Source: Achatina immaculata (Eukaryota > Mollusca > Gastropoda > Stylommatophora > Achatinidae). From it: a DNA stretch of 64,000 nucleotides. A model generated the notes under the pieces. It searched no databases. It was not told the origin of the DNA and saw only the letters and a list, made by a program, of their open reading frames with translations. The translations under genes were made by a program, and so were the position numbers. Below are positions 16,782 through 57,300 of the stretch, piece after piece (position 1 is the stretch's first letter; every line of letters begins with the position of its first letter). Location of the stretch: NCBI GenBank assembly GCA_009760885.1, contig CM019715.1, positions 23,959,642 through 24,023,641 of the forward strand, written 5' to 3'.

Positions 16782-16847
16782 ATGAAGTTAATGATTGCCG
16801 TTATTTTGTTAGCTGCTTCAGCAAGCACCGTGTCAGGGTGTTCCCGT
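16782..16847 (+). CDS. ICK-type peptide gene, unit 1, exon 1 (signal peptide)
   Basis: Twenty-two codons from ATG to a GTAAGT donor at 16848: Met-Lys-Leu, a hydrophobic core (IAVILLAA), then SASTVSG, Cys and two residues. This is a classic secretory signal peptide. Cleavage could occur after ALA/ASA-type small residues (residue 14) or after Gly19. The start is chosen because the unit 2 exon aligns from the same Met. The exon ends in phase 0, matching the phase 0 second exon at 23814. The 6966-bp intron between them holds a microsatellite, a nearly full-length LINE-B with a SINE and other repeats. The encoded peptide should enter the secretory pathway. Exon pairing is inferred. Confidence 0.7.
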
Positions 16848-16850
16848 GTA

Positions 16851-17066
16851 AGTCTATCTATCTATCTATCTATCTATCTATCTATCTATCTATCTATCTA
16901 TCTATCTATCTATCTATCTATCTATCTATCTATCTATCTATCTATCTATCTATCTATCTGTCTATCTGTCTGTCTGTCTGTCTGTCTGCCTGCCTGCCTG
17001 CCTGTCTGTCTGTCTGTCTGTCTGTCTGTCTGTCTGTCTGTCTGTCTGTCTGTCTGTCTATCTGTA
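16851..17066 (+). repeat. (TATC)n then (TGTC/TGCC)n microsatellite at the 5' splice site
   Basis: Roughly 215 bp of CTAT then CTGT/CTGC tetranucleotides start inside the donor consensus itself (GTAAGTCTATCTATC). Both other exon-1 copies also have tetranucleotide repeats at this position. ORFs made of repeated Tyr-Leu-Ser-Ile or Cys-Leu-Ser-Val here are translation artefacts. Confidence 0.95.
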
Positions 17067-17929
17067 ACTGTTCTTCTCTTTTCTCAACGTTTATAACTGA
17101 CCAAATTCCTAGTGTTTCATGGAGTAAAAAGTCACCAAAAGAGAAACCTAGAATCATAATGAGAACCAATATGAATATAAGAATGTAGAATAAGGTACCG
17201 GTCACTGAACACAAGTTTTAATGCCAGATATGGCTAGTTTTATATATATATATATATATATATATATATAATTTTAATTTGTTTATATGCATTTCCTTTA
17301 AATGATGATGATAACAGAGCGAAGGTACGTGATATTGATATATCAGCATATAATTTGTAAGGAAGGAATCGTTAGCATTGAGTATTCGGACCAAGTTGGT
17401 TCCTGTATTACCGCCCCAGTAACTCTACTATGAGTCTCTGGGCGCGAGGAATAACATGTTTACTTGCCAATAGTTTAGGCATATCATTAAGGTTAACAGT
17501 TCGAATATATTTTGGGATGATTTCTATCAGACTAATATTACTAACCTCACATTATGTACGGGACTGTACTGAGTTCAAAACCTTCACGTTTATGTGGCTG
17601 TAGTGTGAAATAACGAAAACTGTTGAAAAGCAAACAAAAAGTTAAATTTATCACTCATATTATATTTTGTTGGTCATAATAAAGAAGGTACATGGTTGTC
17701 TTCCTTTCTTTTAGTGTTCCATAGAGGAATGAGAATAGAATAAGGTTATGAAAAATCACGATGCATCAAAATACGTTGATGTAACATTAATATAACAACA
17801 TAAACACCAATCATCTTATCCAAAATATAAAAAGAATGAATCTCACAAGAATGTTTACATATTTGCATATAAGTATGAATTGCATGTGCATACCTTCCTT
17901 CTGCCTATCTTACTTTTTACATCTTACAT
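17067..17929 (+). other. Intron 1 sequence of unit 1
   Basis: Positions 17067-17190 align with 41571-41700 of unit 2 (shared CTGACCA(A/T)ATTCCT). A (TA)n tract lies at about 17240-17270. Nothing else is recognised to 17929. Confidence 0.5.
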
Positions 17930-18040
17930 CCTTCCAGTGCAGCTAAAAGTCACAGTAGTTCGATAAGTTTTCTTGTTTTCGGCGAACTTTTCAGCCTCAT
18001 CAATGGATTTTATACCTACGAATTTGGCCTCATAACGGTC
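17930..18040 (-). mobile_element. LINE-A-like 3'-end fragment
   Basis: On the minus strand EAKFVGIKSIDEAEKFAENK matches the C terminus of LINE-A (EAKLTGIKS...VERLAEDRKNW). Only about 110 bp remain, directly upstream of the LINE-B 5' end. Confidence 0.7.
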
Positions 18041-18049
18041 TTCTACCTC

Positions 18050-55102: not shown

Positions 55103-55914
55103 CATAACAATTGGAGGTTATGAAATACCAGAGATTAGATATGCTGATGACACAGTATTACTGTCCACAACACAAAAAGGAATGGAAAAACTAATTACAT
55201 CAGTCTGTAAGAATAGCGAAGAGCAAAACCTCTACCTTAATGCGAAGAAGAATAAATTGATGACAACTGACAAAACAAACAAGGCAGCTGAAATATGTAT
55301 CAATGAGGAAAAATTCGAAGAAGTGGAGAGTCTTGAATATCTTGGATCACTACTAACTAATAATGGAGATACAATGAGGGAAATTAAAAGGAGGACATCT
55401 ATCGTTCTTCGGAAAGTACTAAAGAATCTGTGGAGAGGACCAGACAGAACCACAAAAATAAGAATTTTAAGGGCATGCATCATTCCCATCGCAACATATG
55501 CCTGTGAGACCTGGACACTTAACAAAGCAGCTGAGAAACGTATAAATGCCTTTGAATGTAAATGCTACAGAAGAGTTCTTCAAATATCATGGACACACAC
55601 AAAAAAGAACAAATATATCCATACTGCAAGAACTGAATATTGAAGAAGGCTGGCTAGTAAAGAGGATTAAAGAGAGGAAACTTAAATGTTTTGGACACAT
55701 TAAATGCTATGATAATCTAGATAAAACCGTTTTGGAAGGGTACATAATGGGAAAAAGAAAGAGAGGAAGACCAAAGTGAAGATGGCTGCAAGACATAGTT
55801 GATGATCTACAAATAGATGCATCAGCAGCAGACCATCTTGCTCACAACCGAGAGGCCTATAGGAGTGCTGTTAGGGAGGCAAAGTTCCACAAGGGACATG
55901 CAAATGAATGAATG
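55103..55914 (+). mobile_element. LINE-B 3' piece in amplification copy 3
   Basis: Nearly identical to 53917-54720 at an offset of 1186 bp, including flanking minisatellite. The frame 55182-55643 differs from its counterpart in only a couple of residues. Confidence 0.92.
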
Positions 55915-56335
55915 AATGATTGAATGAATGAGTGTAGCTGTGTTTCTATGTCAGTGTACAGTGTTCATTAGATTCTCATGTTGGTGTGTAGATTAGATGT
56001 GACTCTCAGTTTGATGTGTAATGCAGGTGTTATCAACCTTTTGGCCTGTGGTGTAGATGGAAATCTCACGTTGGTGTTAAATATAGCTGTGATCTTTGTA
56101 TTGGTATATAGTGTAGCTATTGTTCTCATGTTCTCATATTGATATATAGTGTAGATATTGTTCTCATGTTCTCATATTGATATATAGTGTAGATATTGTT
56201 CTCATGTTCTCATATTAATATATAGTGTAGATATTGTTCTCATATTGATATATAGTGTAGATACTGTTCTCATGTTCTCATATTGGTATATAGTGTAGAT
56301 ATTGTTCTCATGTTCTCATGTTGGTATATACCAAT
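55915..56335 (+). repeat. About 30-bp minisatellite, last large block
   Basis: Same units as 54726-55102, with two to three additional GTAGATATTGTTCTCATGTT repeats. Confidence 0.88.
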
Positions 56336-56696
56336 GTAGATTCATTCATTCATTCATTTGCATGTCCCTTGAGGAACTTTGCGTCCCAAACAGCACTCAT
56401 GTAGGCCTGTCGGTTGTGAGCAAGATGGCCTGCTGCTGATGCATCCATTTGCAGATCATCAACGATGTCTTGCAGCCATCTTTGCCTTGGTCTTCCTCTC
56501 TTTCTTTTTCCCATTATGTACCCTTCCAAGACGGTCTTCTCTAGATTGTCATGTCCTTTTATGTGTCCAAAATATTTAAGTTTTCTCTCTTTAACCCTCT
56601 TTACTAACCAGCCTACTTCAATATTAAGTTCTTGTAGTATGGATATATTTGTTATTTTTTGTATCCATGATATTTAAAGAACTTTTCCGTAGCACA
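56336..56696 (-). mobile_element. LINE-B 3'-end fragment, antisense
   Basis: Starts (ATTC)n TTTGCATGTCCCTTGAGGAA and covers the LINE-B tail back to the KISWIQK region. It interrupts the minisatellite, whose last units are at 56695-56790. Confidence 0.88.
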
Positions 56697-56790
56697 GTGT
56701 AGATGCAATCCTTGTTTTGGTATGAAGTATAGATACGATCCATGTAACGGTGTAAAGTGTCTATTAGACCCCCGTGTTGATGAGCCCCGT

Positions 56791-57168
56791 GCCTGTATTT
56801 CAAGATCTCCTACGGCCATTTCCAAGGTAACTTCTAAGAATCTAAAACATGTAATGGGTAGCCTCTGCTGATCTGAGTCTCACTATCAGAAGTCAAATAA
56901 AACTTATTTGTTTTCTCTGTACCTCTATCCATATATTTAGAACTTATCTGTGCAAACACCAACCAATAATACATGCACACATTCATTAATTGATTCATTC
57001 ACTCAGTTATTTAATCTTTCATCTGACAATTATCTTTATCCTTGTATCTATCAATCTAATCTAAAGCATAATGAACCACTCAAATATCCATTCACCTATC
57101 AAACCTAATCCATTTAATTTATTATTATGTTATTCCTATAACAAATGAATCTAATCTTAAATCAACAG
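56791..57168 (+). other. Sequence before the unit 3 ICK exon
   Basis: No gene recognised. No signal-peptide exon was found between 43 kb and here. The last bases CTTAAATCAACAG (57156-57168) form an acceptor-like site, but the polypyrimidine tract is weak. Confidence 0.4.
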
Positions 57169-57300
57169 TATATTAACAAAATGCGCTGTGCTCAAACCAA
57201 TGAACGTTGCACCACATTTTTTAAATGCTGCAAGAAAAACTACTCCTGTGTTTTTACCAGTAGAAGTAGATCTTACGGAAAGTGTGTACGACAGAAATAG
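57169..57300 (+). CDS. ICK-type peptide gene, unit 3, cystine-knot exon
   Basis: From the acceptor CAG (57166-57168) a phase 0 frame of 43 codons ends at TAG 57298-57300. Cysteines at residues 7, 14, 20, 21, 27 and 39 give C-X6-C-X5-CC-X5-C-X11-C, identical in spacing to unit 1, with four residues after the last Cys. The domain is strongly basic (many Lys and Arg between Cys 2 and 6), unlike the acidic unit 2 copy. The Pro-rich spacer is absent; only six residues, including one Met (57181), precede Cys1. The partner signal exon was not found, so the gene may be incomplete, may splice from a distant exon or may share exon 37723. The stop and the 3' flank align with unit 1. A functional peptide is plausible because all cysteines and the frame are intact. 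Confidence 0.68.
   Translation, partial: YINKMRCAQTNERCTTFFKCCKKNYSCVFTSRSRSYGKCVRQK

Follow-up and report, generated by a model that had tools for sequence, protein, structure and literature searches.

Signal exons and knot exons

The window analysed here is the whole of a 64,000-nucleotide stretch of contig CM019715.1 (assembly GCA_009760885.1, positions 23,959,642 to 24,023,641). It probably contains a small molluscan cluster of genes for secreted inhibitor-cystine-knot (ICK) peptides, in which gene B would encode two knots, gene A would be a fused derivative and unit 0 a dead copy (Table 1). An earlier interpretation of this DNA, the sequence-only reading, had proposed secreted cystine-knot peptide genes on the basis of five exons. 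Their translations, cysteine spacing and phase-0 splice contexts were all re-read as stated, and both the signal exons and the knots support the proposed product.

Knots A and C are spaced C-X6-C-X5-CC-X5-C-X11-C, and knot B is spaced C-X6-C-X6-CC-X5-C-X10-C. A six-frame search with a pattern looser than the observed spacing, C-X(3-7)-C-X(3-8)-CC-X(3-6)-C-X(4-13)-C, returned exactly three matches in the window, namely exons A, B and C, all on the forward strand, compared to a mean of 0.04 matches in 50 order-2 Markov sequences. The cysteine order of ICK peptides, C-C-CC-C-C, is present in these three knots as well as in X1 and X2, the two knots of gene X upstream of the window. Loop lengths are 6-6-5-10 in B and X1, 6-5-5-11 in A and C, and 6-5-5-10 in X2. 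The predicted structure of knot C, the knot that was modelled, had a predicted local distance difference test (pLDDT) score of 78, and its first seven structural matches were ICK peptides.

Canonical phase-0 acceptors precede positions 23814, 41793 and 57169, and canonical phase-0 donors follow 16847, 37788 and 42044. The claim that the exons are hidden from open reading frame (ORF) calling was upheld for exon B, the exon examined, which appears as a 39-amino-acid piece in the list of frames starting with ATG, GTG or TTG.

Applied to the 344 kb examined, the pattern gave ten rows, five of which were set aside as one minisatellite; a looser pattern run over 144 kb gave seven rows, two of them set aside as judged to be chance or low complexity. 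The residues GC[SF]R close both signal exons (around 16838-16840 and 37779-37781) and would provide gene A with a seventh, unpaired cysteine. The hexamer GTGAGA lies 3' of the stop codon at matching sites in A (24005) and C (57317), where an intron of the 3' untranslated region is possible.

Table 1. Features assigned to the cluster, in window coordinates; negative coordinates lie left of the window start.
Feature	Position	Strand	Remarks
Unit 0, putative relic signal exon	44..115	+	ATA for ATG, 6-base insertion, donor GTAAGT retained
Gene A exon 1, signal peptide	16782..16847	+	Phase-0 donor GTAAGT
Gene A intron-1 remnant	17060..17178	+	Homologous to 41572-41698
Gene A exon 2	23814..23990	+	B-like proline-rich linker fused to C-like knot; stop
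Gene A 3' non-coding flank	23991..24502	+	Homologous to exon C flank
Gene B exon 1, signal peptide	37723..37788	+	Phase-0 donor GTAAGT
Gene B intron-1 remnant	41572..41698	+	Homologous to 17060-17178
Gene B exon 2	41793..42044	+	Long proline-rich stalk and knot 1; without stop; phase-0 donor GTGAGG
Gene B exon 3 (proposed)	57169..57300	+	Knot 2, phase-0 acceptor, stop
Exon C 3' non-coding flank	57301..57832	+	
Gene X knot exon X1	-19734 to -19570 (left of window; L003:266-430)	-	Phase-0 donor
Gene X knot exon X2	-21948 to -21808 (left of window; L004:8052-8192)	-	Phase-0 acceptor, stop

Descent of the units and the pairing of exons

The tandem relatedness of the units was confirmed, and the homology reaches further than had been claimed, linking exon 1 of A with exon 1 of B, and exon 2 of A with both exon C and exon 2 of B. 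Over about 430 bp, the regions around the two signal exons (16430-16860 and 37357-37801) are 72.7% identical. A third copy of this region, unit 0, spans -330 to 121; its start codon reads ATA and the upstream ATG of gene B is absent too, and for these reasons the unit looks dead.

Exons A and B are homologous across the acceptor (23774-23859 and 41753-41838; 86 bp, 74%). From 23890 the similarity of exon A is to exon C and the 3' flank, ending near 24500 in A and 57830 in C (about 68%). One alignment of this kind, at 67.8%, comprises about 470-490 bp, most of it 3' flank. Exon A is thus B-like up to 23859 and C-like from 23890, with the switch located between about 23860 and 23890. From this junction we infer that gene A is a fused derivative, in which a deletion would have joined the stalk to knot 2, removing knot 1.

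The first introns retain traces of a common origin. Unique sequence directly past a simple repeat 3' of the A donor (17060-17178) matches 41572-41698, which sits just ahead of the B acceptor, and these colinear remnants support the pairing of 16782 with 23814 and of 37723 with 41793. The additional DNA in intron 1, about 6.6 kb in A and about 3.4 kb in B, was placed at different points, suggesting an ancestral intron of about half a kilobase that was enlarged by insertions. The surroundings are repeat-rich, as the sequence-only reading had described: 64% of the bases in 15900-31000 occur at more than two copies in the 344 kb examined, and reverse transcriptase or endonuclease domains were found in five of the eight window ORFs submitted to Pfam. 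Within the proposed intron 2 of gene B lie three near-identical reverse-transcriptase fragments in series (52225-52617, 53882-54457 and 55068-55643) and a minisatellite of about 37 copies of a 28-base unit (50257-51283), which retains three long overlapping open frames.

The frame of exon B stays open as far as its donor, and exon C follows a phase-0 acceptor and ends in a stop. When the interval between them (42045-57168) was scanned for signal-like exons with a donor, no candidates appeared, and the two known signal exons were recovered as controls; in the genome, the intact signal exon has two matches at E <= 10, both inside the window. A comparable arrangement was found 20-22 kb left of the window, where gene X, on the reverse strand, has two knot exons 2.1 kb apart. 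The single candidate that scanning produced for its signal exon, located 14 kb from X1 on the upstream side, was not relied on. The intron position before Y[IV]N is common to gene X and to the B-C pair; the intron-divided two-knot form is therefore likely to be ancestral to A, whose single knot exon would be derived.

In a permutation test of loop similarity among the five knots, A-C was matched in 0 of 5000 permutations, followed by B-X1 (p = 0.0074), X1-X2 (p = 0.021) and C-X2 (p = 0.071). The remaining six pairs gave p = 0.147 or more, and B and C resemble each other at chance level (p = 0.48). This last value would suit three separate single-knot genes, in which the donor of exon B is unused and the exon reads to the available in-frame stop at 42104, with exon C being served by an unrecognised signal exon, here or elsewhere. 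We consider this arrangement unlikely, since the scan between B and C was empty, the signal exon is matched only twice in the genome, gene X also has two knots, divided by an intron of matching position and phase, and exon A joins B-like and C-like halves.

A single gene with two knots accounts better for exons B and C than separate genes do, and two genes and a relic fit better than the three separate two-exon genes proposed from the sequence alone. It should be noted that the cysteine codons do not agree with this reading: those of B are shared with A and C at none of six positions and with X1 at one of six, while those of X1 are shared with A and C at five of six.

Genome searches with exon C (E <= 10) returned four rows, comprising exon C itself, exon A, and stretches of contigs C22 and C4. 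The C4 stretch translates with stops upstream. The C22 stretch (L012:1501-1581) resembles the end of knot C (52% over 27 amino acids, E 1.15) without the first cysteines, and is perhaps a partial relic on another chromosome. The other single-exon queries gave one row for P0001 (E <= 0.001) and, at E <= 10, three for P0008 (two with stops), one for P0011 and two for P0009. Such searches are insensitive, P0011 and P0008 having recovered no other knot.

Divergence of the knots and the signal exon

Rapidly changing loops between preserved cysteines had been described for this family, and this was borne out by the comparison of A and C. Their knots differ at 45 of 99 sites, none of which falls within the 18 cysteine-codon sites (P = 3.9e-6 for random placement), while their 3' non-coding flanks differ at 118 of 472 aligned sites. 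The whole knot is more divergent than the flank (Fisher P = 7.9e-5), and the excess is stronger for the loops alone (45/81 compared to 118/472, Fisher P = 1.2e-7); defence or toxin-like peptides are known to behave in this way. The loop differences are spread over the three codon positions (17, 16 and 12, each of 27). In blocks of 60 alignment columns, the knot reaches 46-62% identity and the 3' flank, to about 24485, 67-87%.

The signal exon shows the opposite pattern, with 89-93% identity compared to 58-86% in its flank. It differs at 7 of 66 sites, with nonsynonymous divergence (dN) of 0.06 and synonymous divergence (dS) of 0.29. In the knot, the proportion of synonymous differences is raised as well (pS 0.44; pN 0.46), and selection may therefore be supplemented by recombination or age. 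Conotoxins are likewise reported to combine fast loops with frozen cysteine codons (PMC3823881).

Neutral decay extending to the cysteines, which the sequence-only reading had named as the pattern that would contradict it, is not what the 45 differences show. Pseudogenes in decay, with frames left open by chance, would be in keeping with the introns enlarged by insertions, and unit 0 is a relic of this kind. However, the frames, splice sites and all cysteines of exons A, B and C are intact; the unchanged cysteine-codon sites, the loops that outpace the flank and the signal-exon dN well below dS likewise make decay of these genes highly improbable.

Possible role and comparison with known systems

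Taken together, the locus is fairly probably explained by a double-knot secreted peptide that arose by exon duplication or shuffling, with its knots in separate phase-0 exons, and by a paralogue that lost the first knot through a deletion fusing the stalk to knot 2. In the product of gene B, the signal peptide would be followed by a long proline-rich stalk and two knots, the first acidic (net charge -4) and the second basic (net charge +10). Gene A would be a duplicate from which the deletion removed knot 1, leaving its stalk fused to knot 2, and gene X an older two-knot cousin on the opposite strand. The sequence supports secretion, stabilisation by the knots and fast loop change. The knots would be locked by predicted disulfides, which in ICK peptides run I-IV, II-V and III-VI, and spaced or displayed by the stalk, and diversifying selection imposed by a partner that itself changes may drive the loops.

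Within this model, our tentative first choice of role is a mucosal or immune defence effector, because of the charge contrast between the knots of B, the stalk and the likely land-snail host. A reproductive or signalling ligand is somewhat less likely, and a ligand of a channel or enzyme is a doubtful third. Immune and reproductive or signalling genes are both known to evolve fast.

In the protein database, residues 28-82 of one query (P0007) and one alignment (A4) had no candidate with three shared words, and the signal region of P0012 had six candidates, none at E <= 10; these absences are weak, with no positive control for eukaryotic content. Rfam and Pfam gave nothing on the exons except that a single knot of the five had a row below threshold (E 0.16). 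No Pfam family was assigned to the five window exon pieces, and the conotoxin family PF02950 was unmatched by the five knots; across the genome it gave 16 rows, none over the cut-off (best E 0.052). The molluscan hemocyanin domain PF14830 gave 69 genome rows, compared to none in 14 control genomes, which identifies the host as a mollusc. The rows lie mostly in two dense clusters on contigs C18 and C20, which implies several hemocyanin genes; hemocyanin pieces compared with the PDB did not narrow down the species. A cephalopod host was rejected, as protocadherins gave at least 24 rows, compared to 55-310 in the cephalopods of PMC13218726. A land snail or slug, perhaps Achatina, is the likely host.

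To our knowledge, no venom is known in land snails. Conotoxin-like venom peptides of a predatory gastropod nevertheless deserve consideration, given that psalmotoxin is among the best fold matches of the knot C model and that a conserved signal, fast loops, frozen cysteine codons and small exons in repeat-rich DNA also characterise conotoxins (PMC3823881; PMC8152183). The missing Pfam conotoxin match makes this origin very unlikely, as does the G+C content of 38.1% in the 344 kb, which resembles that of a land slug (37.1%, PMC10770140) and differs from the 42-44% of two neogastropods (Rapana 42.4%, PMC10432487; Conus betulinus 43.8%, PMC7900195). A neogastropod host, at first considered likely, was rejected on this G+C difference. 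Conotoxin precursors share with the cluster short exons, kilobase introns, a repeat-rich location, a conserved signal, hypervariable loops and kept cysteine codons (PMC8152183; PMC3823881). The present genes differ in being unmatched by the Pfam conotoxin family, in the proline-rich stalk, in the two knots proposed and in the host, which is probably a land snail.

Secreted peptides with the order C-C-CC-C-C, variable loops and one- or several-knot forms occur in another mollusc as CRP-I of Mytilus (PMC10138031). According to the same source, the multi-knot CRP-I genes have all knots in the last exon and the spacing C(X3-6)C(X1-7)CC(X3-4)C(X3-5)C, whereas each of the five knots described here has X5 as its third loop and X10/11 as its fourth. 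Tachystatin B, an antimicrobial ICK peptide of horseshoe crabs with 23% identity, came within 1 Z of psalmotoxin, a tie, and the shared fold shows no function. The definition of secreted cysteine-rich repeat peptides (SCREPs), a signal peptide and two cysteine-rich domains per chain (PMC6262176), would cover the product predicted from the gene B model if that model is right.

Among the closest parallels are the bivalent ICK toxins of spiders, despite the different phylum and the weak sequence similarity. Hc1a/Hi1a and DkTx share the signal exon, the ICK knots and, as proposed here, two knots per polypeptide, and the spider toxins also have one-knot derivatives formed by domain loss and repeat-rich surroundings (PMC13172734). 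A single exon of Hc1a encodes both knots, which arose by duplication inside it, and losses favoured retention of the N-terminal knot (PMC13172734). The knots of the present cluster, in contrast, lie in separate phase-0 exons (41793-42044 and 57169-57300; X1 and X2), and the C-terminal knot would have been kept.

No such ICK family of a mollusc, whether cephalopod, gastropod or land snail, was found by title or abstract start among the open-licence papers listed, nor was the two-exon layout with loss of the first knot. If correct, these gene models describe a fast-evolving secreted peptide family in a probable land snail, and illustrate how small secreted genes escape annotation once insertions lengthen an intron that began at about half a kilobase. 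Both ICK peptides and bivalent ICK toxins have been described before; a variant with two knot exons, and with the first knot lost in a relative, would be new, and the locus would keep both sides of the open multi-knot question, an intron-divided two-knot gene and a one-knot gene with a visible breakpoint.
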